NCBI GenBank assembly: GCA_947624305.1
Contig: CANQKC010000007.1
Coordinates: 1 to 64,000, forward strand
Direction: 5' to 3'
Source: an uncultured Monoglobus sp.
GTDB lineage: Bacteria; Bacillota; Clostridia; Monoglobales; Monoglobaceae
Length of the DNA stretch: 64,000 nt
Shown here: piece after piece, positions 42,492 through 64,000 of the stretch
Numbering within the stretch: the stretch's first letter is position 1
Layout of the letters: every line of letters starts with the position of its first letter
Notes under the pieces: generated by a model
Database searches by the model: none
What the model saw: only the letters and a program-made list of their open reading frames with translations
What the model was told of the DNA's origin: nothing
Program-made: the position numbers and the translations under genes

Positions 42492-42520
42492 TTGACTGTA
42501 AATTTAAATTACAGTATAGT
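42492..42520 (+). promoter_or_regulatory. Promoter of the ABC transporter/ATP-grasp/GH3 operon
   Basis: TTGACT (42492-42497), a 17-base spacer, TATAGT (42515-42520). Transcription would start near 42527, about 40 bases before the ATG at 42568, which has GGAGGGG. No second clear promoter was seen before 51891, so the six genes may be one transcript. Confidence 0.8.
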
Positions 42521-42567: not shown

Positions 42568-44313
42568 ATGCTCAATTTTCTGAGAAAGTGTATGAGGCCT
42601 TATGCCTGGCTTATTTTATGCGTTCTTGTTTTTCAGATAGGTCAAACGCTGCTTTCTCTTTATCTGCCCAGGATCAACGCGGGAATTATCGACTACGGAG
42701 TCGCAAGCGGCGACATCGGATACATAATAAATAAAGGTGTAATTATGCTCGTTCTGTCGGTCATTCAATTAGCGTGCGCTGTCGGTGCGGGTATTCTGGG
42801 GGCGAAGGCGGCTTTGTCGGTAGGGCGCGATCTGCGCAAAAAAATATATACAAATATATTGTCCTACTCGCAAAAGGAGATCGCCGTTTTCGGCACGCCG
42901 ACACTTATCACGCGCGCGACCAACGACGTGGAGCAGGTCGTTCAGTTTCTCACGGTTATGCTGACCGTAATAGTCAGTGCCCCGGTAATGTTTATTATCG
43001 GAATTGTTATGGCGCTGGCACAAAGCGTTTCTCTTTCCGTTGTGGTACTTATAACCGTGCCTGCTCTTGTTGTTATCGCAGTTATATTATTGTTATATAT
43101 TATACCGTATTATACCAGACAGCAGGCGCGTATCGACGATACGAACGGAATTTTGAGAGATCAGATCACAGGCGTGCGTGTGGTGCGGGCTTTTGTTCAG
43201 GAAAATTTCGAGAAAAAGAGATTTGGCGAGGTCAATAATGACCTGTATAAAATCGGTCTGGTAACGGCTAAATTACACACGCTGATGGTTCCGCTGTTTA
43301 TGTTTGTCGTAAATGCTGCGACTGTCGCGGTTTTGTGGCACGGCGGTCATCTCGCGCAAAGCGGCAGCGTTCAGGTCGGCGAGATCATAGCCTTTATCAC
43401 ATATTTATCGTTTATATTAACAGCCACGCTCTCGGCGTCGATATTGTTTGTCATGCTGCCCAGAGCGAAGGTCTCCTCAAAACGCATCATCGAGCTGCTG
43501 GACGCCGAAAGTTCGGTCAGAGAATCCGAAAATCCCGTTTCGCTTGACAGTCCGCGGGGAGAGATAAAATTTGAAAACGTCAGTTATTCTTACGCGCCCG
43601 ATGATCCGGACGTCGAGCCCGTGCTAAAAAATATTTCGTTTACGGCGAAGCCCGGAACCAAAACCGCCATTATCGGCTCGACGGGCAGCGGCAAAACCAC
43701 CTTGCTCAATATTATCCCTCGTTTGACCGATGCCACGAGCGGCAGAATTTTGTTTGACGGCGTTGATATTAAAGATTTGAAAAAAGCCGAGCTTGACGCG
43801 GCTGTCGGCATGGTTCCCCAGAAGGCGTTTCTTTTCGCGGGCAGTCTTAAACAGAACATGCTTTATTCCAAAAGCGACGCCTCCGACGACGAGATATGGA
43901 ACGCGCTCCGCATTGCTCAAGCCGAAGAATTTATACGCGAAAAAGAGGACGGAATAAATATGCACGTGTCGGAGGGCGGCGCAAATTATTCGGGCGGTCA
44001 GCGCCAGAGACTGGCGATTGCAAGAGCGATCGTCCGCAGACCGAAGGTCTATCTTTTTGACGACTCGTTTTCGGCTCTGGATTACGCGACGGACAAAAAG
44101 CTGCGCGCCGCGCTTGATGAGATCAGCTCAGACGCGACCGTTATCGTTGTGGCCCAGCGCGTCGCCTCAATCAAGGATGCGGACAATATCATTGTCCTAA
44201 ACAACGGCGAAATTGAGGATATGGGAACGCACGACGAGCTTATTGGGCGCTGCGCCACTTATATCGAGATCGCCTCGACCCAGCCTGACAGCGAAACGGA
44301 GGCGAGCGCATGA
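42568..44313 (+). CDS. ABC exporter subunit 1 (TMD-NBD), degenerate ATP site
   Basis: A 581-residue half-transporter with six membrane helices (about 1-310) fused to an ATPase domain. The NBD has Walker A GSTGSGKTT (about residue 371), signature YSGGQRQRL (about 475) and Walker B YLFDDSFSALD. The usual catalytic Glu after Walker B is Asp, and the switch His is Gln (VVAQRVAS). This is the pattern of the degenerate-site subunit in heterodimeric exporters such as TM287/288 and LmrCD. It overlaps the next gene by four bases (ATGA), as expected for a heterodimer partner. Adjacent biosynthetic-type genes suggest it exports their product, but multidrug export is also possible. Confidence 0.92.
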   Translation: MLNFLRKCMRPYAWLILCVLVFQIGQTLLSLYLPRINAGIIDYGVASGDIGYIINKGVIMLVLSVIQLACAVGAGILGAKAALSVGRDLRKKIYTNILSYSQKEIAVFGTPTLITRATNDVEQVVQFLTVMLTVIVSAPVMFIIGIVMALAQSVSLSVVVLITVPALVVIAVILLLYIIPYYTRQQARIDDTNGILRDQITGVRVVRAFVQENFEKKRFGEVNNDLYKIGLVTAKLHTLMVPLFMFVVNAATVAVLWHGGHLAQSGSVQVGEIIAFITYLSFILTATLSASILFVMLPRAKVSSKRIIELLDAESSVRESENPVSLDSPRGEIKFENVSYSYAPDDPDVEPVLKNISFTAKPGTKTAIIGSTGSGKTTLLNIIPRLTDATSGRILFDGVDIKDLKKAELDAAVGMVPQKAFLFAGSLKQNMLYSKSDASDDEIWNALRIAQAEEFIREKEDGINMHVSEGGANYSGGQRQRLAIARAIVRRPKVYLFDDSFSALDYATDKKLRAALDEISSDATVIVVAQRVASIKDADNIIVLNNGEIEDMGTHDELIGRCATYIEIASTQPDSETEASA

Positions 44314-46121
44314 GCAGATCAAAAACACAGAAAAAATCAAAAAGCATGAGAAATCAGAAAAATCAGATAAACAAAGGCTCCGCGAAAAGGCTTATCGGTC
44401 TTTTTGCCGCCTATAGATCACGGTGCTCGCTGATGATCGCCGCGCTCATAGCTTCGAGCGTGTTCACCGCGATAGGGCCGCGCGTGCTGGGAGGCGCGAC
44501 CGACTCGATCGTGATAGGACTCGGCACAGGCGGCATAGAATGGAGAACATTCTTTTTCCAGGCGGGTCTTGCTATGCTCATATATTTCATGCAGTTTATC
44601 ACCAAATGGGCTGCCGGCCGCGCGTTGGCGTTTATAACGGCGCATATAGCGGCGGATCTGCGTGAAAAGGTCGAAAACAAGCTGTGGACCCTGCCGCTTA
44701 ACTCCTATGACAAAAGACAGCGCGGAGATATAATGAGCCGCGCGTCTAATGACGTTGACAATGTTGTCATGACGCTTAATCAAACCGGCGGAGACCTTAT
44801 ATATTGGCTGCTTATGCTTGTCGGCATGGTCGCCATGATGCTTACGCTTTCATGGCACCTGGCTCTTGTGACGATAGTTTTAATCCCTCTTACGGGCTTC
44901 GGCGTAAAGAAGCTGACCGCCCTTTCCGCTCCGGGCTTTAAGAAACAGTGGCAGTATATGGGAAAAATAAACTCAAACGTTGAGGAAAGCGTCGGGGGTC
45001 ACAATATAATAAAGGCGTATAACCGCGAAAATGAATTTGTCGAAGCCTTTGACGCTCAAAACGCGGAGCTGTACAAAGCGTCAATGCGCGCGTCCGTTGT
45101 CACTAATCTTATCCAGCCACTGTCGCGCTTTGTTACCAACATCAATTATATTGTTGTCGCGCTTGTCGGGGCGTTCAACATAATAAACGGAAGCATGAGC
45201 GTCGGAGAGGTGCAGGCGTTTATTCAGTACTCCAGACAGTTCCAGCAGCCATTCACATTGCTGTCGCAGATGATCAGTACCCTGCAGTCGGGGCTTGTAT
45301 CGCTGGACAGAATTTACGAGCTGCTTGAAAGTCCCGACGAGCCGGCGGACGCTGACGGTGCCTATGACGAATATGAGCTTAAGGGTCAAATAGAATTCAA
45401 GGATGTGTCGTTCAGCTACACGCCCGATAAAAAGCTTATCGAGCATATGAACCTCAAGGTTATGCCCGGTCAGACCGTTGCTATAGTGGGTACGACGGGC
45501 GCGGGAAAAACGACGCTGGTAAACCTGATCGAGCGGTTTTACGAGATCGACAGCGGCGAGATCATTCTTGACGGAAATATCAATATCCGCAAACTGAGCC
45601 GCGCGGCCCTCAGGCGCAATATCGGCATGGTGCTCCAGGACACGTGGCTGTATGACGCAACTATCGCCGAGAATATCATATACGGAGTTCCGAAGGATAG
45701 GAAAATATCCCGCGAGGAATTTCTTGACGCATGTAAAGCGACCTTTGTTGACCAATTTATAAAATCCCTGCCCCACGGCTACGCAACGATTGTAAATAAT
45801 GAGGAAACAGCGGTTTCCGCCGGTGAAAAGCAACTTATAACAATAGCCAGAGCGTTCTTGACAAAGCCGAATATTCTGATCCTCGACGAAGCCACAAGCT
45901 CTGTTGACACCAAAACCGAGGCTCAGATCCAGGAGGCTGTCAACAGGCTGCGCGAAGGCAGAACAAGCTTTATCATCGCCCACCGCCTGTCCACGATACG
46001 CGGTGCGGACATTATTTTGGTTATGAAAAACGGACATATTGTGGAGCAGGGTAATCACGAGGAGCTTATGAAGCTCGGCGGGGAGTACGCTGATCTTTAC
46101 AGGGCGCAGTTCGCGGGTTAA
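44310..46121 (+). CDS. ABC exporter subunit 2 (TMD-NBD), catalytic Glu present
   Basis: This is a 603-residue partner of the preceding subunit. A lysine/serine-rich cytosolic N-terminus of about 30 residues leads to six membrane helices and an NBD. The NBD has Walker A GTTGAGKTT (about residue 397), Walker B ILDEATSSVD with the catalytic Glu, and switch His in IIAHRLSTI. Its signature is the deviant VSAGEKQL. In the heterodimer, this Walker A/B would pair with subunit 1's canonical YSGGQ to make the active site, and its SAGEK would face subunit 1's degenerate Walker site. The arrangement is internally consistent with an asymmetric exporter. Confidence 0.92.
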   Translation: MSRSKTQKKSKSMRNQKNQINKGSAKRLIGLFAAYRSRCSLMIAALIASSVFTAIGPRVLGGATDSIVIGLGTGGIEWRTFFFQAGLAMLIYFMQFITKWAAGRALAFITAHIAADLREKVENKLWTLPLNSYDKRQRGDIMSRASNDVDNVVMTLNQTGGDLIYWLLMLVGMVAMMLTLSWHLALVTIVLIPLTGFGVKKLTALSAPGFKKQWQYMGKINSNVEESVGGHNIIKAYNRENEFVEAFDAQNAELYKASMRASVVTNLIQPLSRFVTNINYIVVALVGAFNIINGSMSVGEVQAFIQYSRQFQQPFTLLSQMISTLQSGLVSLDRIYELLESPDEPADADGAYDEYELKGQIEFKDVSFSYTPDKKLIEHMNLKVMPGQTVAIVGTTGAGKTTLVNLIERFYEIDSGEIILDGNINIRKLSRAALRRNIGMVLQDTWLYDATIAENIIYGVPKDRKISREEFLDACKATFVDQFIKSLPHGYATIVNNEETAVSAGEKQLITIARAFLTKPNILILDEATSSVDTKTEAQIQEAVNRLREGRTSFIIAHRLSTIRGADIILVMKNGHIVEQGNHEELMKLGGEYADLYRAQFAG

Positions 46122-46159
46122 AAAGTCAAACATTAAATAAAAAACAGGAGGTAAAAAAT

Positions 46160-47500
46160 ATGAAAATAGTATTTTACAACACATCTTCAAAGGACGTTAC
46201 GTCGCGTTCATCCGCGATGTTTTATCCCAAAAGAGCCGACTTATGGGACGATCTCGCGGAGCACTATCCGGAGCACGAGTTTTATTTTGTGACGTCAAAC
46301 GGCGGCGGTATTCTCGTGGATATTACAAACGGAGAAATTGCGGTTTATCCGAAAAAGGTTAAGTACGTCATTACCAACACGCGGGACAGTGCGGACACGA
46401 TTGCCGATATTATTATCAGTCTAGACCCAGACGCGGCGATAGAAATTTCGACGGCAACCACGCCTATTGACTGGAACTTTATCAAGGATTCCCTTGTAGC
46501 CGAAAAGCTCCGCGCGAAGGGTATACGCACCATATCGCAAACGCTGTTTTCGTCGCTGGCGTTTTATGACAAGTGGCGTTCGTCCATGGCGCTGCGCAAT
46601 TACGGATTTAACGTCGCCGAAAGCGTTTTCGTCCACAACGACCAGTATTGGGCGGAAAGAGAAATCAAAAACATGACGAACAACGTATATAAGGAGTATA
46701 TTTTATACAAAATCAGCCGTCTTAATTATCCCGTTATCATAAAGGGAACCATCGGCGCAGGCTCCACGGGAATCGAAATCGCCCAAAGTTTCGAGGAGGC
46801 GAAGGCGGTTCTTAATTCCGAAAACAACAATGCCGACCTCATAGTCGAGGAAATGATACAGGGCGAGAATATCGGCACCGATATTTTCGGAGCGGACGGA
46901 CAATACCACGTTCCCTCGGCGTACTTCAACTCCACTACAGACAAAAATATCTCCGATCCGTACCATCAGATCAAATTCGGTCCGGTAACGGCGGAAAGAT
47001 ATAATCTTAAGGAACTGCAGGAGTCGCTTATTAAGCTTGCAAACGATTTCAAGTTCGGCGCCGGAGCTAATGTCGATTTGATTTTTAAGGACGGTAAGTG
47101 GTACATAATCGAGGTCAACCCCAGATGGTCGGGAATGACTACTACGGCTGCAGCGGCGGAGGGCAGGAACCCGCTTGTCATATACGCGGAGTCGGTATTT
47201 GGCAGCTCTTCTAAGTATTCGGATGTTGAAAACCTCAAATATACGCTCAACTTCAAAATACCCGAAATTGATGAGGAAACCTTCAACAGGCTCAGCGAGT
47301 GCGACTGCGTTAAATCGATGCTTCACAGCATGACGCGCCTGCCGGACAGGATCATTCAATACTGCGAAATTATTATCGGCGGATTTGAAACGCCGGATGA
47401 TCTGATTGCCGGACTCAAAAAAATCAATGACGATTTCCCCGGCGTCGTATCCGAGGACGTAATGAAAACCGCCGCATATATGACGGAAAACAATAAATAA
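46160..47500 (+). CDS. ATP-grasp ligase (446 aa), substrate unknown
   Basis: The protein has an ATP-grasp fold. A Rossmann-like N-terminal part (about 1-110) precedes the nucleotide-binding segment YPVIIKGTIGAGSTGIEIA (about 190-208). The hinge LIVEEMIQGENIG follows, and the Mg-binding strand is IIEVNPRWSGMT (about 315-326). Such enzymes join a carboxylate, activated as acyl phosphate, to an amine or thiol. Close class members include amino-acid ligases of non-ribosomal small peptides. The start is ATG 46160 with AGGAGG. It follows the exporter genes by 38 bases and precedes a second, different ATP-grasp gene, so a two-step amide-forming pathway is plausible. I do not recognise a named function. 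Confidence 0.85.
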   Translation: MKIVFYNTSSKDVTSRSSAMFYPKRADLWDDLAEHYPEHEFYFVTSNGGGILVDITNGEIAVYPKKVKYVITNTRDSADTIADIIISLDPDAAIEISTATTPIDWNFIKDSLVAEKLRAKGIRTISQTLFSSLAFYDKWRSSMALRNYGFNVAESVFVHNDQYWAEREIKNMTNNVYKEYILYKISRLNYPVIIKGTIGAGSTGIEIAQSFEEAKAVLNSENNNADLIVEEMIQGENIGTDIFGADGQYHVPSAYFNSTTDKNISDPYHQIKFGPVTAERYNLKELQESLIKLANDFKFGAGANVDLIFKDGKWYIIEVNPRWSGMTTTAAAAEGRNPLVIYAESVFGSSSKYSDVENLKYTLNFKIPEIDEETFNRLSECDCVKSMLHSMTRLPDRIIQYCEIIIGGFETPDDLIAGLKKINDDFPGVVSEDVMKTAAYMTENNK

Positions 47501-47520
47501 TTATTTTCGGAGGGAGAAAG

Positions 47521-48393
47521 ATGAATAAAAAACCTTATACGTTATTTTCAAACGTGGACGATTTGCTGGAAAAATACGGCGATCATATTTTCGACAACGG
47601 CGACAAATTGTTTGACCCAATGGTTATTGACTTTCTTCATATGTCGATCGAATCCGGACAAAAGCTCAAGCTGCGCTACAGAGGAAAAGAGATCGACATT
47701 CCCGAATCTTTCTGGCCATCGGTTTCAAACACGGACGGACTTATAGTAGAGAGACTTCTGATCGCGGCGGGTTCAAAATGCCTGATAGACATCGACGAGG
47801 TCGCGGCGACAAGAAGCAAGATTATAACTTACGGAAGACTGGCGGCGAAGGGCATAAGAATCCCTAAAACCCTGGTTTTCTTCCACCACACCGACAGGGA
47901 ATATATTTTGGAAAATCTGCAGCCTCCGTTTATCGTAAAGCCTGACAACGGCTTCGGCGGCACCGGTGTGGAGCTTATCCATGACGAGAAGGAATTTGAC
48001 GAATTTCTGTCAAACGTAAAGCCGGGCATTGCTTATATAGCGCAGGAATATATTTCCACCTCATTCGGCAGAGACGTCCGCGTTGTTATGCTGAACGGAA
48101 AATATTTCTATTCGGCAATGCGAAACTCAAATAATCCCGACGAGTTCCGCTCCAATGTTCATCAAGGCGGAGAAATGACGGATTATCCGATTGATAAAGA
48201 AACCGAAGCGTTATGCGAAAAGGTCGCATCGCTGTTCAATTTACCGATTTTGGGCATTGATTTGCTGATAGGCGACAACGAGTATGTGGTTGTCGAGGTT
48301 AACGCGACTCCCGGCGGCTTGCCCGATGACAAGAATAAAGAGGCGTATTATTCGATTATAAAGAGCAACGGCATAGACCTGGGACTGGATTAA
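47521..48393 (+). CDS. ATP-grasp (RimK-like) ligase (290 aa)
   Basis: A shorter ATP-grasp protein unlike its neighbour. The nucleotide-binding strand and loop are FIVKPDNGFGGTGVELI (about 137-153). IAQEYISTSFGRDVRVVML corresponds to the hinge and the RDxRV motif seen in RimK-type glutamate/peptide ligases. VVVEVNATPGGLP (about 256-268) supplies the Glu and Asn that bind magnesium. It probably ligates an amino acid or similar to a carboxylate. The start is ATG 47521 with GGAGGGAG, 20 bases after the preceding stop. The position between another ATP-grasp gene and two GH3 genes suggests a dedicated assembly pathway. The substrate is unknown. Confidence 0.85.
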   Translation: MNKKPYTLFSNVDDLLEKYGDHIFDNGDKLFDPMVIDFLHMSIESGQKLKLRYRGKEIDIPESFWPSVSNTDGLIVERLLIAAGSKCLIDIDEVAATRSKIITYGRLAAKGIRIPKTLVFFHHTDREYILENLQPPFIVKPDNGFGGTGVELIHDEKEFDEFLSNVKPGIAYIAQEYISTSFGRDVRVVMLNGKYFYSAMRNSNNPDEFRSNVHQGGEMTDYPIDKETEALCEKVASLFNLPILGIDLLIGDNEYVVVEVNATPGGLPDDKNKEAYYSIIKSNGIDLGLD

Positions 48394-48416
48394 TTTTTAA
48401 AGCCGAAAATCAGGAG
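48391..48416 (+). repeat. Duplicated leader before the first GH3 gene
   Basis: TAATTTTTAAAGCCGAAAAT with the ribosome binding site is repeated almost exactly at 50155-50180 before the second GH3 gene. The GH3 tandem duplication therefore includes the 5' leader (unit about 1,762 bases). Confidence 0.8.
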
Positions 48417-48422
48417 GAGAAA

Positions 48423-50129
48423 ATGTTACATAGATTAGAAATCCCTGAGGATATAACACCGGAAAATCCGTTGTACGAGGAGTACAACAATTATAATGAG
48501 GCGGTTGACATGTGTATGAACGCCGGAGCGTACAGCCGCGATCTGCTGATGCGGATAGTGCGCGATAACGAGAATACGGAGTACGGCAAAAAGTACGGCT
48601 TCAGCGAGATCCGTTCCGTTGAGGACTATAAAAAGAAGGTTCCCTTCTCGGTATACGACGACTACGCGGAGGCGATCGAGCGCATGACTCGCGGCGAAAC
48701 GAACCTGATAACCGCCTACCCGATCGTCCATTACGCCGTGACTTCGGGAAGCGTGGACAATCCCAAAAACATTCCGGTATCGGACCGCACCATGGACGCA
48801 TACATGAAATACGCCTCAAGTATCGCCCAATGCGTATACGACCACGGCATACGCCAAATAAAGGGACGTCCGCCGAAATTCGGAAAACAGTTTATGACCG
48901 CGGTCGTAAAAACCGATTACGTGAAAGACGGAACGCTTAGGGGACCGATATCGTCGGCGGTATTCATTAAGAAAAAACCGTTTATGCACTATATTCTTCC
49001 GCTGCCCACAGAGGTTATGTACCCCGAGGGCAAAAAATTCAATCAAAAGTATCTGCGCGCGTTTTACGCGCTCAAGGAACGCAATATCGTATGCATGGTC
49101 GCGCCGTTTATGACAGCTCTTGTGGATACCATGTACTATATAGAATCCAATTGGCGCTCACTGATTCATGATATAGAAGTCGGAAGGCTCGACCCCGCCA
49201 TGGATATGGACGAGGATTTCCGCGCGGAGGCGAATAGTCAGCTGAGGCCCGATCCCGAAAGAGCGGCGGAGCTTAGAGCGGTTTTTGAAAAAGGTTTTGA
49301 CGAGCCCGTTATCCCGAAAATCTGGCAAAACTGTGATTACCTTTCGGCGATCGGAGGCGGCGGATTTGCCTCTTACACCCAAAAGATGAAGCGCTACTCG
49401 GGCGACATACCGATATATTTTAACAGCTACGGCGCGTCCGAGGGCCCGATTTCAACCAGTATGGAGATGGGAAAACCGGAGAGCACGGTAATTCCCGCAA
49501 ACGGCTTTTTCGAGTTCATTCCGGTGGATGACGAAAGCGGAGACTCGACAAAAACGCTTGACCTTGACGAACTTGAGATCGGACGCGAATACGAGATAGT
49601 TGTCACCAACCTCGCGGGCTTTTACCGCTACCGCCTTGGCGATGTTGTCGAGGTTGCGGGTTACGACGGCAAATCCCCGAGACTGTTGTTCAAGTACCGC
49701 AAGAACCAAATGGTCAACATTGCGGGCGAAAAGACAAACGAGGCTTGTGTCGCGTGGGTAGTGCGCGAGTTCGAGAAGATGATTGGCGAGCCGATTACCG
49801 ATTTCAGCATATATGCCGACACCGACGACCTTCCCGGACGCTATGTTATGTTTTTGGAGCCCGAGAAGCACCTTTCCAAAGAGAAACATGATTATTACCG
49901 CGATATATGCGATGAAAAGATGGGAATTGCCAACCCGTCATATGGCGCGAAGATAAAGGATAAGCTCCTGCTGCCGCTGAAGCTCTGCTTTTTGCAGCAG
50001 GAAACGTATTACTTGTACCGCGACATGATGATGCTGAAGGGCATTTCCGAGAACCAGATAAAGCCCGTGCGCGTGATCGACACGCCGAGAAAAGAAAAAT
50101 TCTTCTTCGGCCTTATCGACAGAGAATAA
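48423..50129 (+). CDS. GH3-family acyl-acid amido synthetase, copy 1
   Basis: A 568-residue adenylating enzyme of the GH3 family, known in plants for conjugating jasmonate, auxin or benzoates to amino acids. Family motifs are visible: the phosphate loop TSGSVDNPKNIPVSD (about 101-115), the ASSE-like YFNSYGASEGPIS (about 333-345) and LAGFYRYRLGDVVEVAGY (about 397-414) with the YRxGD adenylate-binding residues. The C-terminal lid domain follows from about 420. The chemistry should be acid + ATP to acyl-AMP, then amide formation with an amine. Bacterial GH3 enzymes are little characterised. AGGAGG precedes ATG 48423. It sits downstream of two ATP-grasp ligases and an exporter. Confidence 0.88.
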   Translation: MLHRLEIPEDITPENPLYEEYNNYNEAVDMCMNAGAYSRDLLMRIVRDNENTEYGKKYGFSEIRSVEDYKKKVPFSVYDDYAEAIERMTRGETNLITAYPIVHYAVTSGSVDNPKNIPVSDRTMDAYMKYASSIAQCVYDHGIRQIKGRPPKFGKQFMTAVVKTDYVKDGTLRGPISSAVFIKKKPFMHYILPLPTEVMYPEGKKFNQKYLRAFYALKERNIVCMVAPFMTALVDTMYYIESNWRSLIHDIEVGRLDPAMDMDEDFRAEANSQLRPDPERAAELRAVFEKGFDEPVIPKIWQNCDYLSAIGGGGFASYTQKMKRYSGDIPIYFNSYGASEGPISTSMEMGKPESTVIPANGFFEFIPVDDESGDSTKTLDLDELEIGREYEIVVTNLAGFYRYRLGDVVEVAGYDGKSPRLLFKYRKNQMVNIAGEKTNEACVAWVVREFEKMIGEPITDFSIYADTDDLPGRYVMFLEPEKHLSKEKHDYYRDICDEKMGIANPSYGAKIKDKLLLPLKLCFLQQETYYLYRDMMMLKGISENQIKPVRVIDTPRKEKFFFGLIDRE

Positions 50130-50184
50130 AAGCAAAATAGACCCGGGTTTGTATTAATTTTTAAACCGAAAATGGGGAGGAAAA

Positions 50185-51891
50185 ATGATAAATAGATTAG
50201 AAATTCCCGAAGATATAACGCCGGAAAATCCGTTGTACGAGGAGTACAACAGTTATAATGAGGTAATTGACATGTGCGTGAACGCCGGGGCGTACAGCCG
50301 CGATCTGCTGATGCGGATAGTGCGCGATAACGAGGACACCGAGTACGGCAAAAAGCACAGCTTCAGCGAGATCCGTTCCGTGGAGGACTATAAGAAGATG
50401 GTTCCCTTCTCGACATACGACGACTACGCGGAGGCGATCGAGCGGATGACGCGCGGTGAGGAAAATCTGATAACCGCCTACCCGATCATCCATTACGCCA
50501 AGACTTCCGGCAGCGTGGACAACCCCAAAAACATTCCGCTGTCTGACCGCACCATGAAAGCCTACATGAAATACTCCTCAAACATTGCACAGTGCGTATA
50601 TGACAACGGTATACGCAAAATAAAGGGGCGCCCGCCAAAGCGGGGAAAGCAGTTTATAACCTCGGTCGTACATATCGATCATGTAAAAAACGGCGCTTTA
50701 AAGAGCCCGATATCGTCGGCAGTATTCCTGCAGAAAAAGCCGCTTATGCGCCATGTCCTGCCGTTTCCCGCAGAAGTGATGTTCCCTGAGGAAAAAATCT
50801 TCGACCAAAAGTATCTGCACGCGTTTTACGCTCTCAGAGAGCGCAATATCGTATGTTTGGTAGCGCCGTTTATGACCGCCCTCATGGACAGCATGTACTA
50901 TATTGAGACGAACTGGCGCTCACTGGTTTATGATATAGAAATCGGAAGGCTCGACCCCGCCATGGATATGGACAAGGATTTCCGCGCGGAGGCGAATAAC
51001 CGGCTAAAACCCGATCCCGAAAGGGCTGCTGAGCTGAGAGCGATCTTTGAAAAGGGCTTTGACGAGCCCGTTATCCCGAAGATCTGGCCGAACTGTGATT
51101 ACCTTTCGGCGATAGGCGGCGGTGGATTTGCGTCCTACACCCAAAAGATAAAGCGCTACTCGGGCGGCATACCGATATATTTTAACAGCTACGCCGCGTC
51201 CGAGGGCCCTATATCAAGCTGTTTGGAGATGGGAAAAACAGAGAGCACGGTGATACCGGCGAACGGCTTTTTTGAGTTTATTCCGGTTGATGACGACAGC
51301 GGTGATCCGACCAAAACGCTTGACCTTGACGAGCTTGAGGTCGGACGCGAATATGAGATAATTGTCACCAATCTCGCGGGCCTTTACCGCTACCGTCTGG
51401 GTGATGTGGTCGAAGTCGCGGGCTACGAGGGCCAATCCCCGGAAATTGAGTTCAAATACCGCAAAAACCAGATAATCAACATCTCGGGCGAAAAGACAAA
51501 CGAGGCTGCAGCCGCGTGGGCTGTGCGTGAGTTTGAAAAAGCTACGGGAGAGGCGATCACGGATTTCAGTCTATACGCCGACACCGACGACCTGCCCGGA
51601 CGCTACGTGTTTTTCATGGAGCCCGAGAAGCACATTCCAAAAGAAAAGCACGCTCATTACCGAGATATATGTGAGGAAAAGCTGCGCATCGCCAATCCGA
51701 TATACGACGAGATGCTGGAGGGCAAGCATCAGCTGCCGATGAAGCTACACTTTTTGCAGCAGGAAACGTATTACTTGTACCGCGACCTGATGATGCTGAA
51801 GGGCATCTCCGAGAACCAGATAAAGCCCGTGCGCTTAATCGACACGCCGAGGAAGGAACGTTTCTTCTTCGGACTTATTGACAATGAATAA
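50185..51891 (+). CDS. GH3-family acyl-acid amido synthetase, copy 2
   Basis: This is exactly the same length (568 aa) as copy 1 and roughly four-fifths identical by eye, including the leader. Motifs are TSGSVDNPKNIPLSD, YFNSYAASEGPIS and LAGLYRYRLGDVVEVAGY. Differences cluster in the middle (for example FPAEVMFPEEKIFD against LPTEVMYPEGKKFN) and in the lid, which may reflect a different acid or amine substrate. Both copies keep all visible catalytic motifs, so neither looks decayed. It is the last gene of the operon. A weak inverted repeat follows at 51892-51930. Confidence 0.88.
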   Translation: MINRLEIPEDITPENPLYEEYNSYNEVIDMCVNAGAYSRDLLMRIVRDNEDTEYGKKHSFSEIRSVEDYKKMVPFSTYDDYAEAIERMTRGEENLITAYPIIHYAKTSGSVDNPKNIPLSDRTMKAYMKYSSNIAQCVYDNGIRKIKGRPPKRGKQFITSVVHIDHVKNGALKSPISSAVFLQKKPLMRHVLPFPAEVMFPEEKIFDQKYLHAFYALRERNIVCLVAPFMTALMDSMYYIETNWRSLVYDIEIGRLDPAMDMDKDFRAEANNRLKPDPERAAELRAIFEKGFDEPVIPKIWPNCDYLSAIGGGGFASYTQKIKRYSGGIPIYFNSYAASEGPISSCLEMGKTESTVIPANGFFEFIPVDDDSGDPTKTLDLDELEVGREYEIIVTNLAGLYRYRLGDVVEVAGYEGQSPEIEFKYRKNQIINISGEKTNEAAAAWAVREFEKATGEAITDFSLYADTDDLPGRYVFFMEPEKHIPKEKHAHYRDICEEKLRIANPIYDEMLEGKHQLPMKLHFLQQETYYLYRDLMMLKGISENQIKPVRLIDTPRKERFFFGLIDNE

Positions 51892-55548: not shown

Positions 55549-58500
55549 TTATTTTATTTCGGCGGCGTTGTCAAAAAAGCCGAGGGTAACAAGAGCGTTT
55601 ACCGCCCTGCTTATGTAATTCTCATCGGTAAGCGGCCATGAAAATCCCAGCTTGTAAAGCGCCTTCACGGTAAAGTTGTTGACGTTTTCGACCGCCCTGT
55701 GTTCAGCGTCATTTGTTCTGTAGGATATAAGGGCCGAAACCTCCATGTTTTTCTCGTCGCTTGACAATATCTCGTTGAACCGCTTTTCATATTCCTCGTC
55801 AGGCTCTTTTTTAATAATTATGCCGTTTTCGCGCATGCCGTCAATAACGTTGTCCATGTGGACAAAATGGGCGTTATACGCGTGGAACACCGTGAACCGC
55901 GAAGGCGTGCCCGCGAGCTTCAATACAGCCGCCGCCGTTGAGTCTATCGGTGAAAACTCGACCTCCCTGTCGAGCTCCGAGATCGGGAAGCAGCCGAGCA
56001 CCGCGTAAGCGCGCAGCGTGTTCATAAAGTTGTTGGTTCGGAAATTTGCCTGGAACTCTCCGTCCTTTTCGCGGCTCATCAAATTTCCGACGCGTATCAC
56101 CTTGCCTCTGAGGCCCTTGTCCCTGACCGCGGTGAGCACCGCCTTTTCCGCCCTGTGCTTGGTGTTCACATACTTGTTGTCAAGATCCTGTCCGAATTCA
56201 AGCATGCTCTCAGAAAGCTTCACATGCTTTGGAATACTGCCGCCCACGCTCTCGCCGCCAACGCTGACCGTTGAGATCTGAACCAGGCTCTTGTCAAGCT
56301 CAAGGCAGGCCGCTATCAGGTTTTCAACGCCCTCAACATTTACCTTTTCGAGTATGTCGCTGTTTGTGAAATGCTTTACGCAGGCCGCGCAGTTTATCAC
56401 GGTGTCAAAGTCGTATCCGCGCAGCTTATCGGTGAGCCCGCCCGAGGTAATGTCGCTGTCTATGACGGTGATGCAGCTTTCAAACAATTCGTCATAGGTG
56501 TCGTCAAAATAAAACATCAGCATCATTTTCACGCGCTCCTCGGCAGTCAGCTTGCCGTTGTTCCGCGCGAGGCAGAATATTTTTCCCGCGCCGCCGTCGA
56601 TGAGCTGCTTTAGCACATGCGCGCCCAGAAATCCCGTGGCGCCCGTCACCAGAACGTTTCCTATGTCCGTATAAGTTATTTCCCCGACATGCTGCGCCGT
56701 ATTGTATTTCAGAACGTCGCAAAGCGGCTCTTGTTCCTCGTCCGCCGCGGCTTCGGCCACGGTTTTTGTCTCCGTCGCTTCCGAAGCGTTCACAAGCGCC
56801 GCCAGCTTTGCCGGCGTTGTGTTGTCGAAAATATCCTTATAGACAATGGGAATATTTTGAGTCATGCAGCGCACGGCAATTTTTGTGGCCAGCAGCGACG
56901 TGCCTCCGAGCTCAAAGAAATCGTCGTCGGCGTATACCGTGTCAAGACCGAGCACGGCGGCGAACATATCGCAAAATGTCTTTTCCGTGTCGTTTGCGGC
57001 TTTTCTTCCGTCCGATCTTTTCCGCGCCGTCTGCGGTTCGGGCAGCGCTTTTTTGTCTATCTTGCCGTTTGCCGTGGAAGGCAGCTCGTCAAGCCGGTTA
57101 AACGACGCGGGGATCATATAATCCGTGAGCGTCTTTTTCATTTCAGATTTCAGATACTCAACGTCGGGATCTCCCTCGGCGGTGTAGTACGCGCATATTC
57201 CGTCCTCTTGACCGACCTTTCTGATCACAGCGACAGCCGAGCGTATTCCTTTTATGTTTGTCAGGCACTTTTCGATCTCGCCAAGTTCAATCCTCAGTCC
57301 GCGGAGCTTGACCTGATTATCCGTTCTGCCGAGGATCACAACGTCTCCGTCCTTTGTGTGACGCGCGTAATCGCCCGAGCGGTAGAAGCGTTCGCCATCA
57401 TATTCGATAAAAGCCTTTTCAGTCTGCTCGGGAAGCTTGTTATAGCCTAAGGCGACTCCCAATCCGCCTATAAGCAGCTCGCCTACAACGCCCGGCGGCA
57501 GCTTGTTTCCGTCCATATCCACAATGTACTCGCGGCAGTTCAGGAGCGGTCTGCCGACGGATATTTCATCGGCGTTTGTAAGATCCTTCGCGTTTGACGC
57601 CACAGTGATCTCCGTGGGACCGTAGGCGTTTATAAGTCGAGCGTTCGTCTTTTCGCGCAGGACACTAAGCAGCTTATCCGAATATTTTTCGCCGCCCGAT
57701 AAAATCACCTTGCAGTTTTTCATTGCGTCCGCGAATTCGTCAAGCTCCATATATACAAGAAGTCTCGACGGCGTGGCGATGAACGCGTCCACATTGTTTT
57801 CCTTGAAGAAAGCCGCGAGCGACAGAGGATCGTTTATCTGCCCGTCGTCCGCGAAAGCGAGCGTAAGACCGTTGCAGAGCGCGACAGCCGTCTCCTGCAG
57901 CGACATATCAAATGATACTGTTGTGATCGCGCCGTAGCATTTGCAGCACTCGGTTATGCAGCGAACCTGAATATTGCGCTCGTCATCGGTAACATAGCCC
58001 GCGATAGCGATATGCCTGAGCATAACGCCCTTAGGCTTTCCCGTGGAACCGGAGGTGTAAATAAGATAAGCCAAATCATCGGGTGAAATTGCGATATCCG
58101 GCTTTTTATCATCTCCGTCCGCTTCAAGCTCCGCTATATCAACCGTATTTTTGTACGCGTCAAGCAAATCGCCGAAGGTTATCACAAGCTCCGCGCCGCT
58201 GTCCTCTATAATGCTTTCTATTCTCTCTTTCGGATATTCGGGACAGGTCGGTATAAACGCGCCGCCCGCCTTTAATATACCGAGCATTGCAGCTAAGAAT
58301 TTTGAGGTTCTGTCCAAAAGTATAATCACGCGGCTGCCGTTTTTAATTCCGCGCTTTAACAGCGCGTTCGCGATCACATTCGCGCGTCTGTCCGTTTCGG
58401 CGTAAGTAAATTTGCCGTCGCAGGCGATGATCGCCGTCCGGTCGGGGTGGAGCTTTGCCTGATACTCGAATTTTTCGTGCAGAAGCTTTATCGGGGGCTC

Positions 58501-61500
58501 CGCGAAACCCGTGAATGAAAATTCGGCAATCTGTTTCTCGCCCGCCTTATCGAGCATAGATAATTGACGCGCCTTGCCGTCGGGATTTTCGATGATTTTC
58601 TCCGCGACTGTTTTGATCGCGTTCGCAAACGTGTTCATGAGATCGCGGCTGTAAACCGCGTCGTTGTATTGTACGTTTACGCACTCTTTGCCGTCGGTTT
58701 CTTCGATGAACACGCCCGTGTCGAATTTTACGCGCTCCTCGCCGATAAGCTCTCGTTCGATCAATTTGCCGTCTATACGAAGCTCGTCCACGACGCCGAG
58801 CTGGTACGCGTACATAATATGCGGCGCGTAGTCGAATTTGCGGCACACCTCTGCATACGGATAAGCCTCGTTCGCGACCGCGTTTATAAGCAGATCCTTC
58901 GCGCGCCCCACAAGCTCCGCTGCCGTTATATCGTCAATTTCAAGACCTATCGGCAGCGTTTTTACAAACATACCGAGACAGTTTGTGAGTTTCATATCCG
59001 AGCGTCCGCTGCTTATCGTGTTGATATACGCGCCGCGGCTGTTGGTATATCTCGACACGACGTAAAGTGTCGCCGCGAGGAACAGATGCGCGGGAGTCGC
59101 GCCGACGCTGCCGCAAAATTCCGTGACGCGCTCCATGTCGATCGGGGCGGAAGCCGTCGCGGTGGAGCCGTTTTCGGCAAGCCCGCCGCTATCCGGCGTG
59201 ATTTTAGCCGCGCTCTCGCAATGCGCGAGCATATCGGAAATGTATTTTTCCGACGCTTTGAACTCATCGCCGCCCATGAAGGCTCTGTCGTTCTTCACAT
59301 AGTCAAAGTAATCGTATGTTTCGCTCTGTATTTCGCCGCCCTCGAAAACCGTTTTTACCGATTTCAGGAACAGGTCGAACGACGCGCCGTCAAAAATAAT
59401 ATGGTGGAAATCGGCGAGAAAATGAACAGCCGCTTCCGTTTGGATCACCTCGATCCTGAACAGCCGCGAATTTATAAGCTTGAACGGCTTTACAAATCCC
59501 GCGCGGTACTTTTTAAGCTCATCCTCGCTCATGTTCTTCACGGGAACCGCATATCCGTCCGCGTCCATGCGCTGCTGAACAATATCGTCGTCTTTGACCG
59601 TGAGCCGCGTGAAGATATACGGATGCGCCGCGAGTACTGTATCTATCGCGTCAGCGAGCTTTTCCGCGCCGAAATCGGCGGGGAACCGGAGCATGAATGG
59701 GATATTATAGAACGTGTCGTCCGGGCGCTTCATACACTCCGAATACACTCCGTACTGCGTGTACGAAAGCGGCGCGAACTCCGCTTTTTCAGTTTTATTT
59801 TCCGTCAGCGCCTCGGCGGGCTTATCCTTCGCGGTAAGCAAATAGCCGACAATATCGTCCTCTATTGACATCACCGTGCAACCCTTCATAAGCGTCTTTA
59901 TGTCCGCTCCATAGCCGAACGTTTTGTTAAGCTCGACCGCGAGTTTTATAACAGAGAGCGACGTCATGCCGCAGCGCATAATGTCGGCTGAAACGTCGAT
60001 CTCGTCCGTGCCGATTATGCCCTTTATTATTTCAAGTATCTTTGTTTCAAGCGCCGTGAGTGAACGTTCGGTCTTTGCCGTCGGCTCCGCTGAGGCAAAA
60101 TCAATTTCAGGCAGACTTCTCTTGTCGACCTTGCCGTTTACCGTAAGCGGTACCGCGTCGATCCGCATGATTGCCTCGGGAACCATATACGGCGGCTTTC
60201 TCTCCGCGATAAATTCCTTAAGAGCCGCTATGTCAACCTCGCTGTCCGATACGATATATGCGGCGATATATTTTCCGCCCGACGCCTTATCCCTCGCCAC
60301 AACAGTCGCGTCCTTTATTCCCTCAAAATCGCGTATAACGGACTCGACCTCGGTAAGCTCGATGCGGTAGCCGCGTATTTTAACCATGCCGTCGCGTCTG
60401 CCGACGTATGACAGATTGCCGTCGTTCATGAATTTTACTATATCGCCCGTATGGTAAAGCACGTCGCGGTATTTGCCGCTTTCAAACGGGTTTTTAACGT
60501 ATACCTTTTCCGTCTGCTCCGGACGGTTCAAATATCCCTCGGACACGAGCGGGCCCGCAACGCACAGCTCGCCGACCGCGCCGAACGGCAGCATACGGAG
60601 CTGCTTGTCAACGATATAAAGCCGCGCGTTGTCGACGCCTATTCCGATTGGAACAGGGTCGTAATATTTATCCATCAGGAACGCCGTTATCAATATAGTG
60701 CACTCCGTCGGTCCGTAGCTGTTGTACTGTTTAACACCCGTTCTCGGCTCAAACGGCACAAGCTTTTCGCCGCCAATGTCCACAACCTTGAGAGCAATAT
60801 CGTCGATCGAGGTCAAAAACGCTCTGGCGACCTGCGTTGTCAAGGAAATATGGGTAATATCGTTTTGCGCGCAGTATTCGTTGATCCACATCAAATCGAG
60901 CCTGCGCTCCTCGGGGATCACGTACTCCGCCGCGCCCGCGCTCAGATACGGGTAAATGTCCAGCATATGCACGTCAAAGCTGTAGCTCGCGTGCGCCGCC
61001 GTCGAGCTTTTGTCCGTAATATCGTAAACTCTTTGGAACCAATGAATAAAATTGGTAAGATTATGATGCGTCAGCATACAGCCCTTCGGCGTGCCCGTCG
61101 AACCTGATGTATAGAGCAGCACAAACAAATCATCCGGGCCGGGCGAGGGGAGAGGCGCGCCGCCGCTGACGACGAGAGACGGAATATCCTCCGTTGTTAA
61201 TATTTCCCCTTCAAAATCGGGTATGAGCGAAAGCAGCTTGCCGTCCGCGATAAGCATTTCAGCCTCCGCGTCCTTCGTCATAAACCGCAGCCGCTCCGGC
61301 GGATGCGTCGGGTCGAGCGGCTCGTACGCCGCGCCCGATTTGAGTATGCCGATCGAGCAGATCGTCATATATTCGCTGCGCTCGACCATTGACGCTATAA
61401 CGTCGCCCCTGCCCAGACCTTTTGATCGGATATACCGCGCGATCTTGTCGGTTATCTCATCAAGCTCTTTATAAGTATAGCGGTTTTCCTTGAACACGAG

Positions 61501-62922
61501 AGCCGTTTTATCGGGCGTTTTCTTTACCTGCGCGCGGAACAAGTCCACAAATCCGACGCTCAGATCAACATCGGTTATAAGCGCGTCGTTTAAAGCGCGT
61601 ATTTTATTTACGCTGCGCTCGTCCGCGAGGCGAAGCTTTGAAAGCTCCGATTTTTTGAGCATTTCCGAAATTATTAGAATAACCGTGTCCGCAAACGAGC
61701 GTATTGTTTCGTACTCGTACAAATCGGTGCGGTATTCAAAATCCATTTCAAACGCGCCGCCGTACTTGAACACCATAATAGCTAAGGGCGATTGCGCGCT
61801 GTAAGACGGGACCCGCTCCATTTCAACAGTGCTTTCGCCGAGCGTGAATGTGTTGAACGAATCCGACTGATACGCGAAAAATATACCCGCATTTATTCCG
61901 TATTCGCCCGCGAGCTTGACAAACGGATAATTACCGATTTTTATCGCGCCGCGCTGCGCCGCGCGGACGTCCGCGAGATAATCGCCGACCGTGGCGGTCT
62001 CGTCGATTTTTATGTAAAGCGGCAGAGTGCGGATCATCATGCCGACGGTATTTTTCATGCGCGGGTCGGATCTGCCATGGTTGACGGTGCATATTACCGC
62101 GTCTTCCTGAGCGGTAAACTTCGCCGCCGCGTATGCGACAGCGCCGAGGAAAAGCGTGTTTTCGGTTATTCCGTTTTCCTTTATAAACGCGTCAACCTTT
62201 TCGACCGATATATCATCCGGCAAAACCAGCCTGAATTCACTGCATGGCTTGTCGGCGACAGAGTCGTCTTCGTTCATGTCCGCAACGAGCATTGAATTTG
62301 TTTCAAGCCCCGCGAATATGCTTTCATAATATTTACGCGCTTCCTCATACGCCGTGGTATTCACGAATTTTTCCTCGTATACCGACAAGCCGAACTGGCC
62401 TATTTCCTCCGGCTCGATCTCGCCGCCCGAGTAAAGCGTTGAGATCTCGCCGCACATAACGGAAAACGACGTGCCGTCAACCGCGATATGGTGGTAGTCC
62501 GTCAAAAAGCACATTTTCGTTTCCGTTTCGATAATTTCAAAGCGGAACAAATAATCGCGCTCCAAATCAAACGGCTTCACGAAGTCGTTTTTCAGCTTTT
62601 CAAGCTCGCCGTCCGAAGCGCTTATCACCGGAATGTCAACCGCAATCTCGCGCGGCTTCATAACCGGCTCTCCGCCTGAGGCGTCAATGTAATAGCGCAG
62701 TCCTTCATGATTTTTAACCGCTCTTTCCACAGCCGACTTCAGCGCGTCGATATCAACGGCTCCCTTATCAAACGTATAGCAGAGCGGCGAGTTATACATC
62801 AGTCCGCACGGATTATGCATACAAGCCAAATATACGCCCATCTGGCTCGGCGTGAGCGGATATTCCTTCATGCCCCGCGCTTCCGCGACCGACTCGGCTA
62901 TTAAATCTTTTTCGGTTTTCAT
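55549..62922 (-). CDS. Two-module nonribosomal peptide synthetase with reductase release domain (C-A-T-C-A-T-R)
   Basis: This is a 2457-residue assembly line. C1 has DYHHIAVDG (about 142-150). A1 has LYTSGSTGTPKGC (about 608-620) and SYGPTE. T1 has RCGMTSLSV (Ser about 987). C2 has DFHHIIFDG (about 1170-1178). A2 has IYTSGSTGKPKGV (about 1621-1633) and AYGPTE. T2 has ELGGTSLLA (Ser about 2007). The terminal thioester reductase has VTGATGFLGAHVL (about 2091) and the YxxxK pair in YVNTKHRAE (about 2250). A leading C domain suggests N-acylation of the first residue. Reductive release should give a dipeptide aldehyde, which could cyclise to a pyrazinone if the amine were free. Specificity residues read by eye are D-V-L-S-V-I-S-I-L (A1) and D-M-Q-I-I-S-A-V-A (A2), which I cannot assign. 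ATG 62922 follows GAGGTG, 12 bases after the MATE gene. No carrier-activating Sfp enzyme is in the window. Confidence 0.95.
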   Translation of the reverse strand: MKTEKDLIAESVAEARGMKEYPLTPSQMGVYLACMHNPCGLMYNSPLCYTFDKGAVDIDALKSAVERAVKNHEGLRYYIDASGGEPVMKPREIAVDIPVISASDGELEKLKNDFVKPFDLERDYLFRFEIIETETKMCFLTDYHHIAVDGTSFSVMCGEISTLYSGGEIEPEEIGQFGLSVYEEKFVNTTAYEEARKYYESIFAGLETNSMLVADMNEDDSVADKPCSEFRLVLPDDISVEKVDAFIKENGITENTLFLGAVAYAAAKFTAQEDAVICTVNHGRSDPRMKNTVGMMIRTLPLYIKIDETATVGDYLADVRAAQRGAIKIGNYPFVKLAGEYGINAGIFFAYQSDSFNTFTLGESTVEMERVPSYSAQSPLAIMVFKYGGAFEMDFEYRTDLYEYETIRSFADTVILIISEMLKKSELSKLRLADERSVNKIRALNDALITDVDLSVGFVDLFRAQVKKTPDKTALVFKENRYTYKELDEITDKIARYIRSKGLGRGDVIASMVERSEYMTICSIGILKSGAAYEPLDPTHPPERLRFMTKDAEAEMLIADGKLLSLIPDFEGEILTTEDIPSLVVSGGAPLPSPGPDDLFVLLYTSGSTGTPKGCMLTHHNLTNFIHWFQRVYDITDKSSTAAHASYSFDVHMLDIYPYLSAGAAEYVIPEERRLDLMWINEYCAQNDITHISLTTQVARAFLTSIDDIALKVVDIGGEKLVPFEPRTGVKQYNSYGPTECTILITAFLMDKYYDPVPIGIGVDNARLYIVDKQLRMLPFGAVGELCVAGPLVSEGYLNRPEQTEKVYVKNPFESGKYRDVLYHTGDIVKFMNDGNLSYVGRRDGMVKIRGYRIELTEVESVIRDFEGIKDATVVARDKASGGKYIAAYIVSDSEVDIAALKEFIAERKPPYMVPEAIMRIDAVPLTVNGKVDKRSLPEIDFASAEPTAKTERSLTALETKILEIIKGIIGTDEIDVSADIMRCGMTSLSVIKLAVELNKTFGYGADIKTLMKGCTVMSIEDDIVGYLLTAKDKPAEALTENKTEKAEFAPLSYTQYGVYSECMKRPDDTFYNIPFMLRFPADFGAEKLADAIDTVLAAHPYIFTRLTVKDDDIVQQRMDADGYAVPVKNMSEDELKKYRAGFVKPFKLINSRLFRIEVIQTEAAVHFLADFHHIIFDGASFDLFLKSVKTVFEGGEIQSETYDYFDYVKNDRAFMGGDEFKASEKYISDMLAHCESAAKITPDSGGLAENGSTATASAPIDMERVTEFCGSVGATPAHLFLAATLYVVSRYTNSRGAYINTISSGRSDMKLTNCLGMFVKTLPIGLEIDDITAAELVGRAKDLLINAVANEAYPYAEVCRKFDYAPHIMYAYQLGVVDELRIDGKLIERELIGEERVKFDTGVFIEETDGKECVNVQYNDAVYSRDLMNTFANAIKTVAEKIIENPDGKARQLSMLDKAGEKQIAEFSFTGFAEPPIKLLHEKFEYQAKLHPDRTAIIACDGKFTYAETDRRANVIANALLKRGIKNGSRVIILLDRTSKFLAAMLGILKAGGAFIPTCPEYPKERIESIIEDSGAELVITFGDLLDAYKNTVDIAELEADGDDKKPDIAISPDDLAYLIYTSGSTGKPKGVMLRHIAIAGYVTDDERNIQVRCITECCKCYGAITTVSFDMSLQETAVALCNGLTLAFADDGQINDPLSLAAFFKENNVDAFIATPSRLLVYMELDEFADAMKNCKVILSGGEKYSDKLLSVLREKTNARLINAYGPTEITVASNAKDLTNADEISVGRPLLNCREYIVDMDGNKLPPGVVGELLIGGLGVALGYNKLPEQTEKAFIEYDGERFYRSGDYARHTKDGDVVILGRTDNQVKLRGLRIELGEIEKCLTNIKGIRSAVAVIRKVGQEDGICAYYTAEGDPDVEYLKSEMKKTLTDYMIPASFNRLDELPSTANGKIDKKALPEPQTARKRSDGRKAANDTEKTFCDMFAAVLGLDTVYADDDFFELGGTSLLATKIAVRCMTQNIPIVYKDIFDNTTPAKLAALVNASEATETKTVAEAAADEEQEPLCDVLKYNTAQHVGEITYTDIGNVLVTGATGFLGAHVLKQLIDGGAGKIFCLARNNGKLTAEERVKMMLMFYFDDTYDELFESCITVIDSDITSGGLTDKLRGYDFDTVINCAACVKHFTNSDILEKVNVEGVENLIAACLELDKSLVQISTVSVGGESVGGSIPKHVKLSESMLEFGQDLDNKYVNTKHRAEKAVLTAVRDKGLRGKVIRVGNLMSREKDGEFQANFRTNNFMNTLRAYAVLGCFPISELDREVEFSPIDSTAAAVLKLAGTPSRFTVFHAYNAHFVHMDNVIDGMRENGIIIKKEPDEEYEKRFNEILSSDEKNMEVSALISYRTNDAEHRAVENVNNFTVKALYKLGFSWPLTDENYISRAVNALVTLGFFDNAAEIK

Positions 62923-62934
62923 ACTTTCACCTCA

Positions 62935-64000
62935 TTATATTATTTCTTTAATTTGATTCATACCTAACACAACGGAGTACTCAAAACTTTTATATTTGCC
63001 GCCGAATTTGCTTTCGTCAATTTCGGCCCCGTTGTTGCGGAGCATTATGACATACGCGCCGTCCTCACGCCCTATCCGTATATCGTTTTCGGCGCTTTTG
63101 TCATTGCCGCTCACAAACGCAAACAGCTCCGACACGGCTTCGGCAGCTTTGTTTCCGTCCGTGATCTTATCCGCGACAGCCGACTTTATTTCCGATACGT
63201 CAGCGTCGGATCTTACGGAGAACGAGAGCAGCTCGTTCGCCTCGTCAAGCAGGAACATATCCCTGTATCTGCCGTTTGATTTTGCTATTGTTATGATAAT
63301 CATAGCCGCTATAACAATACATGTTCCGTACTGAGCCGCGCATGACGTCACCCATAATCCCGTTATGCCGAAAAGGCGGCTGAGTATATACGCAAACGGT
63401 ATAGTGAGCACAATTCCGTTGACGATCGAAACCGTGACCGACATAGCTTTGCGCTGCGTCGCGGTAAAATAGTACATGAATAAAAACGACATCGACATTC
63501 CGATAAATGACAGCGCGCTTATGCGGAGCGCGGAGACGATCATCGCCATTTCCGCTGGAGTTTTCTCTCCGAAAAGCCGCGCGACCGGAGCGGGTATGAT
63601 CTCAATAACAAGCGTGATCGCTGCCGCCGCGATCAGAAGCAGCAAAGTCGCGCGCTTCATGGCGTATTTTATCCCGGCAGTGTCGCGCTCTCCGAAAAGC
63701 GCGCTCACTATCGGCGTCAGCGTCTGCGACGCTCCCGTTACGAACGCGGAAATAAATATCTGGCAGTTTGATACTACCGACATGGAAACCATGCCCTCCT
63801 GTCCACCCGCGTTTTGTACCGCGGTGTTCATATAAAGCGTCGTGACAATAATAAGCATCGCGCCAAGCGCGCCCGATATGCCCGTGGTAAAAAGTGAAAC
63901 GCATTCGCTTCGCAGCTTTTTCGGCGGTAACGCCGCGCTCAAATCAAAATGAAGCGTATTTTTCTTGTTTTTAAAATGCGTGAGCATAATGCAGAACGCG
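62935..64000 (-). CDS. MATE-family transporter, 5' end beyond window, with cytosolic C-terminal ATPase-like extension
   Basis: The visible part (about 355 residues, open to the right edge) contains the second half of a MATE-type Na+/H+-coupled multidrug exporter: about six hydrophobic helices with FTTGISGALGAMLIIVT, FVTGASQTLTPIVSALFGE and ISALSFIGMSMSFLFMYYF. After the last helix, an extension of about 100 residues (MFLLDEANELLSFSVRSDAD to the end) resembles a degenerate GHKL/anti-sigma-factor ATPase domain, with VIMLRNNGAEID in place of the G1 box. The frame continues upstream of ATG 63987 (AFCIMLTH), so that ATG is not the start. It lies 12 bases upstream of the NRPS gene in the same operon, so it is a candidate exporter of the peptide aldehyde. 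Confidence 0.85.
   Translation of the reverse strand, partial: AFCIMLTHFKNKKNTLHFDLSAALPPKKLRSECVSLFTTGISGALGAMLIIVTTLYMNTAVQNAGGQEGMVSMSVVSNCQIFISAFVTGASQTLTPIVSALFGERDTAGIKYAMKRATLLLLIAAAAITLVIEIIPAPVARLFGEKTPAEMAMIVSALRISALSFIGMSMSFLFMYYFTATQRKAMSVTVSIVNGIVLTIPFAYILSRLFGITGLWVTSCAAQYGTCIVIAAMIIITIAKSNGRYRDMFLLDEANELLSFSVRSDADVSEIKSAVADKITDGNKAAEAVSELFAFVSGNDKSAENDIRIGREDGAYVIMLRNNGAEIDESKFGGKYKSFEYSVVLGMNQIKEII

Follow-up and report, generated by a model that had tools for sequence, protein, structure and literature searches.

Analysis of a 64,000-nucleotide stretch of DNA (hereafter the window) from a rabbit-gut Monoglobus MAG revealed, at positions 42568 to 51891, an operon encoding two ABC half-transporters, two ATP-grasp ligases and two GH3 acyl-acid amido synthetases, which is real, conserved and undescribed as far as the searched literature shows. 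The operon probably serves the biosynthesis and export of a small amide metabolite, with GH3 acting as the adenylating ligase. The observations underlying this reading are gene content, gene order, recurrence, intact motifs, purifying selection and the occurrence of the genes at different genomic sites. An earlier sequence-only reading, which had claimed this six-gene set and its interpretation, was partly supported, its core idea being right, and the set itself agrees with both the open reading frames and the Pfam domains. Bacterial GH3 proteins are almost unstudied, and in this operon they stand together with ATP-grasp ligases and an exporter of their own, which suggests that gut anaerobes and acetogens make small amides of a class not yet described.

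All six genes lie on the forward strand. The exporter half-transporter genes ABC1 (42568 to 44313) and ABC2 (44310 to 46121) overlap by 4 nt and are followed, with spacings of 38, 20, 29 and 55 bp, by GRASP1 (46160 to 47500; an orphan ATP-grasp carboxylate-amine ligase of 446 aa), GRASP2 (47521 to 48393; a RimK-type ATP-grasp ligase of 290 aa), GH3a (48423 to 50129) and GH3b (50185 to 51891). An AGGAGG-like site precedes each of the six starts, the operon leaves no room for an additional gene, and it is bordered by a divergent sigma-factor gene at the left and a convergent kinase-like gene at the right. A sigma-70-like promoter match 5' of ABC1 (TTGACT-17-TATAGT; 42492 to 42520, forward strand) is a weak candidate, because such matches occur in the region at near chance frequency (16 versus 13.6 expected); no Rfam elements were found in the window. 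Pairwise comparison of the Monoglobus copies gave omega values of 0.04–0.24 for the operon genes (0.20 for GH3b), and the six genes are under purifying selection.

Both transporter subunits match PF00664 and PF00005 (Pfam). ABC1 has a canonical signature (YSGGQ) and an Asp replacing the Walker-B Glu (LFDD), and ABC2 has a canonical Walker B (LILDE) and a degenerate signature (VSAGEK). The pair is thus predicted from its motifs to be a canonical heterodimer of the exporter fold with one degenerate ATPase site, in line with the heterodimeric exporter claimed before, and the ABC pairs of two other operon types described below, a sister operon and that of the Lachnospiraceae, have a motif pattern of the same kind. 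The best-scoring models for the subunits were MsbA-type. The direction of transport is predicted to be outward; exporter-fold ABC heterodimers can also import substrates or flip lipids, which counts against the export reading.

GRASP1 and GRASP2 each match ATP-grasp families (PF02655, PF07478 and PF13535 for GRASP1; PF08443, the RimK family, for GRASP2). The metal-binding ExN residues of GRASP1 (E318 and N320) are invariant in all ten relatives, and the catalytic motifs of GRASP2 align with both RimK-type ligases of Acetobacterium woodii; an AlphaFold model of GRASP1 built from 10 sequences was too poor for fold placement (pLDDT 53.9). Against the RimK alpha-L-glutamate ligase model TIGR00768 (cut-off 143.4), GRASP2 scored 123.5 bits and was not assigned to that family, and the A. 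woodii ligases GRASPb and GRASPa scored 148.9 and 135.5, respectively. A graspetide (ATP-grasp RiPP) pathway was considered and rejected, as there is no precursor gene, the gaps within the operon measure 20–55 bp and the upstream neighbours vary by site; the RimK-type ligases scored far under the cut-off of the MvdC model. A GRASP1 homologue (37%) in a Treponema (L082, 3947 to 5751) is followed by a GNAT-like gene and stands without GH3, so that the GRASP1 family exists outside the operon too.

The GH3a and GH3b proteins both exceeded the cut-offs of PF03321, PF23571 and PF23572 (E = 5 × 10−68 and 4 × 10−69), and both carry the complete nucleotide-binding motifs and C-terminal lysines (TSGSVDNPKNIP, Y(G/A)ASE, YRYRLGD, EKT and NQIK). 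The nearest solved structures, at low sequence identity, are plant enzymes for auxin, jasmonate and benzoates. Judged by their motifs, the GH3 and ATP-grasp enzymes look catalytically intact. The sole NCBIfam model matched by GH3a, GH3b and the Acetobacterium GH3s was that of OlsH (NF052613), with 76.5 and 84.1 bits for GH3a and GH3b and 72–105 bits across the window and Acetobacterium proteins; since the cut-off is 620, membership in OlsH was rejected. No OlsI-type O-acyltransferase (alpha/beta-hydrolase type) was present among the six operon genes and the immediate neighbours scanned.

A GH3 tree of 70 rows, built by a quick method with SH-aLRT as its only support, resolved two clades: GH3-I (98), which unites the window GH3s with the Lachnospiraceae type, with Acetobacterium GH3-I and with one GH3 of a sister operon that the window's genome also carries, and GH3-II (100), to which the second GH3 of Acetobacterium, a GH3 at locus L147 and the other GH3 of the sister operon belong. 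The two GH3 synthetases of the sequence-only reading are indeed two complete enzymes, but they do not represent two different steps: GH3b is a lineage-specific duplicate of GH3a (81% identical) that arose by recent tandem duplication and was seen in two Monoglobus genomes only (G000, which holds the window, and G012), and the ancestral operon unit has a single GH3. Elsewhere in the window's genome, as in Acetobacterium and in one further family, GH3s of clade I and clade II do form a true pair.

GH3 genes were detected in 8 of the 38 genomes of the window's family, all of them in its genus, and GRASP1 in 5 of the 391 genomes of a class sample, all Monoglobus. A scan of a species-genome collection with the single protein GRASP1 as the query, whose reach is limited to close relatives, returned Monoglobus MAGs and three Lachnospiraceae MAGs, all from rabbit gut, as well as the Treponema; one of the three Lachnospiraceae bears the label Marvinbryantia. 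The ABC-ABC-GRASP1-GRASP2-GH3 order is constant in Monoglobus wherever the contig is long enough, and these Lachnospiraceae share the five-gene order (GRASPs ~54%, GH3 75–76%, ABC2 75–86%). Within Monoglobus the operon occupies at least three different sites: it adjoins nth in six cases (G006, G008, G010, G011, G013 and L078), lies between the sigma-factor and kinase-like genes (sigma/APH site) in G000 and G012, and has a third site in L075. The flanking genes remain at these sites in genomes without the operon there, and the G011 copy is decayed, with GRASP1 lost and ABC2 truncated. We infer that the operon is accessory and moves horizontally; carriage on a plasmid was rejected, as only distant matches were found.

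Almost all genomes of the genus Acetobacterium carry a related operon with the order STAS-GH3(II)-GH3(I)-ABC-ABC-grasp-grasp. GH3-I was found in 17 of the 19 Acetobacterium genomes, nearly always with a second GH3, versus 0 of 42 other relatives; the order GH3II-GH3I-ABC-ABC-RimK-RimK was seen in all 16 loci read, and a STAS gene heads the operon in 15 of them. The Acetobacterium ATP-grasps are ~30% identical to GRASP2 and may have been recruited independently, hence the products possibly differ. The earlier reading had made its case depend on whether GH3 and ATP-grasp genes occur together in other genomes, and ordered co-occurrence was found in three families. The genome G124 is that of A. 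woodii: over 432 residues its RnfC matches PDB chain 9eri_C without a difference. That PDB entry is named in a publication about the Rnf complex of A. woodii (PMC11889175). Gene-deletion tools are published for A. woodii (PMC10472528), and because this genetically tractable organism has a copy of the operon, the function of a widespread and still unexplained enzyme family can be tested directly. In the literature searched, neither the A. woodii operon nor clusters of GH3 with ATP-grasps were described, and OlsH was the only bacterial GH3 with a functional description.

The genome of the window also harbours a sister operon, GH3I-GH3II-NRPS(A-T-C)-ABC-ABC (L016, 1318 to 11153, contig C1), which is found in G007 as well, seemingly adjoining NRPS-MATE genes. 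The earlier claim that no carrier protein is involved holds for the six genes, in which Pfam found no carrier (PP-binding) domain, so that they do not class as an NRPS system; it does not extend to the sister operon, where a GH3 of the same clade stands with an NRPS that has a carrier domain. At L147 (7058 to 16998), in the Lachnospiraceae-like genome G689, the order is GH3I-ABC-ABC-CapA-like-GH3II-STAS-SpoIIE; GH3I, GH3II and the ABC pair are kept and a CapA-like gene stands where the ATP-grasps would be, a lack of ATP-grasps that weakens the amide-export reading. Because the GH3 clades recur with NRPS or CapA-like partners, the kept core is GH3-I plus the ABC pair, with the amide-forming partner exchanged.

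The window contains an NRPS of its own (55549 to 62922, reverse strand; 2457 aa), with C, A and carrier domains, two of each, and at its end an NAD-binding domain resembling a reductase, which looks like a gut NRPS of the dipeptide-aldehyde type. It adjoins a MATE transporter gene (62935 to 63987, reverse strand), and the NRPS-MATE genes are kept in G012 and in part in G007. Another single reverse-strand ORF of 8785 aa (5363 to 31720), whose start resembles a signal peptide and which combines BspA-type leucine-rich and Listeria-Bacteroides repeats with SLH domains at the C terminus, is predicted to encode a giant surface protein.

GH3 genes were observed in several other settings. At seven loci (L069, L070, L161, L163, L168, L064 and L151) GH3 lies in a partner-switching cluster (STAS/SpoIIE/RsbW), and in most of these there is also a MATE transporter gene; L064, L151 and L168 add sugar-transfer-type ATP-grasps, and in L064 and L151 two domains are fused. 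At L068, L071 and L072, from three families, GH3 adjoins GNAT-like genes and one or two putative B12-binding radical SAM genes, labelled from their N-terminal sequence only, a set that is possibly another GH3 pathway. At L167, L169, L170 and L156 a GH3 domain is fused C-terminal to a family 2 glycosyltransferase domain (850–866 aa; Pfam check on L169 only), and most of these fusions adjoin ABC pairs and further glycosyltransferases.

To compare gene neighbourhoods, 38 GH3 loci outside HMM building were set against 40 control windows from the same genomes, using home-made HMMs from few sequences, so that the absolute rates are rough. Within 6 kb of GH3, exporter genes were found at 17 of the 38 loci versus 4 of the 40 controls (P=0.0005) and STAS/SpoIIE/RsbW genes at 9 of 38 versus 0 of 40 (P=0.0009). 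The ATP-grasp enrichment disappeared once the HMM-building loci were left out (1 of 38 versus 0 of 40), indicating that GH3 in general is untied to ATP-grasps and that the association belongs to particular lineages. A LytTR response regulator gene lies 3' of all three Lachnospiraceae operons of type A (ABC-ABC-grasp-grasp-GH3), joined in two of the three by a GHKL kinase gene, the contig of the third ending there; STAS and SpoIIE genes lie 3' of the operon at L081. The partner-switching genes near clostridial GH3 loci hint at a link to signalling or envelope control. It is conceivable, if rather doubtful, that the clostridial GH3 operons form a new class of exported-amide signalling systems, in which a diffusible amide, made by GH3 together with ATP-grasp or NRPS enzymes, would leave the cell and be read back via STAS/SpoIIE/RsbW or an agr-like LytTR/GHKL pair; this would be a bacterial counterpart to the hormone-conjugating role of plant GH3.

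In the route that we propose, whose substrates, step order and biological role are predictions, the ATP-grasp ligases would convert carboxylates to acyl phosphates in the cytosol and build a short peptide or pseudopeptide from amino acids or from an acid plus an amino acid. The acid that GH3 would adenylate and couple to an amine, with no carrier protein, could be a fatty acid, an aromatic acid or the peptide being extended, and the heterodimeric ABC transporter would carry the product out of the cell. The ligase module, either two ATP-grasps or an NRPS module, would be swappable around the core of GH3(I) and the ABC pair. This amide-export reading is supported by the tightly packed intact genes, the gene order kept across families, the several sites, the confinement of PF08443 proteins to the operon in three genomes, the Acetobacterium and sister operons and the exporter enrichment, together with the precedents of OlsH (PMC12493201) and of the E-64 and dapdiamide pathways, which pair an ATP-grasp ligase with an adenylating ligase (PMC12568646).

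A different product, an envelope aminolipid, would be formed if GH3 linked a fatty acid with either an amino acid or a peptide made by the ATP-grasps and the ABC pair flipped the lipid into the outer leaflet. We regard this as unlikely. In its favour, the only characterised bacterial GH3 that we found is an N-acyl-ornithine synthase (PMC12493201) and its model is the one NCBIfam match of the window and Acetobacterium proteins, MsbA-type models score best for the transporter, and glycosyltransferase 2 fusions of GH3 occur near ABC pairs elsewhere in Clostridia; the OlsH scores, however, fall far short of the cut-off, an O-acyltransferase or other lipid gene is absent from the operon, and a simple aminolipid would not require two ATP-grasps. 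Detoxification is less probable still: GH3 and the ATP-grasps would conjugate plant aromatic acids with amino acids for efflux, resembling auxin and benzoate conjugation in plants, and both the plant enzymes among the solved structures and the hosts (herbivore gut bacteria and Acetobacterium, of which A. woodii can use caffeate) fit this, but identity to plant GH3s is low, two extra peptide-type ligases would be superfluous, and partner-switching regulators are frequent in related operons.

The RimK-like character of GRASP2 would also suit a system that modifies a protein or cofactor with amino acids, the genes being neighbours through regulation only; this is very improbable given a TIGR00768 score below cut-off and a GH3–ABC linkage kept in three families at different sites. 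Chance juxtaposition of unrelated genes was rejected, its probability being negligible, as the order is conserved across three families and several sites. Moreover, all PF08443 proteins of G000, G010 and A. woodii lie within the operon and none elsewhere in those genomes, which makes chance linkage very unlikely.

The operon can be compared with several known systems. GRASP2 and both Acetobacterium ligases resemble the RimK/LysX/MptN-type alpha-L-glutamate ligases in being PF08443 proteins with the ExN motif; RimK proteins add a glutamate tail to ribosomal protein S6. GRASP2 differs in scoring under the RimK-family cut-off and in its linkage to GH3 and ABC genes. The transporter shares a Walker-B Asp in one subunit and a degenerate signature in the other with heterodimeric exporters having one degenerate site (LmrCD/BmrCD/TM287-288 type), but has a dedicated place in a ligase operon. 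The window GH3s share three domains with plant JAR1 and GH3.12, and their three nucleotide motifs and two C-terminal lysines align with those structures, although they are distant in sequence and set in a bacterial operon. OlsH of Singulisphaera is likewise a bacterial GH3 with conserved nucleotide motifs and carrier-free N-acylation, making N-acyl-ornithine without ACP or CoA (PMC12493201); the window operon differs in having no OlsI partner, in its added ATP-grasps and exporter, and in its low model scores. Finally, in the dapdiamide (DdaG and DdaF), E-64 (the ATP-grasp Cp1B and the amide bond synthetase Cp1D) and cystargolide (CysC/CysD) pathways, one adenylating and one ATP-grasp ligase assemble amides step by step from free acids, and the amide bonds need no NRPS carriers (PMC12568646). 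As in the dapdiamide/E-64 type, adenylating and ATP-grasp ligases share one cluster with no carrier domain in the window operon, which differs in using a GH3-family adenylating enzyme and two ATP-grasps and in lacking any gene for acid tailoring, of which the oxygenase of the E-64 pathway is an example.
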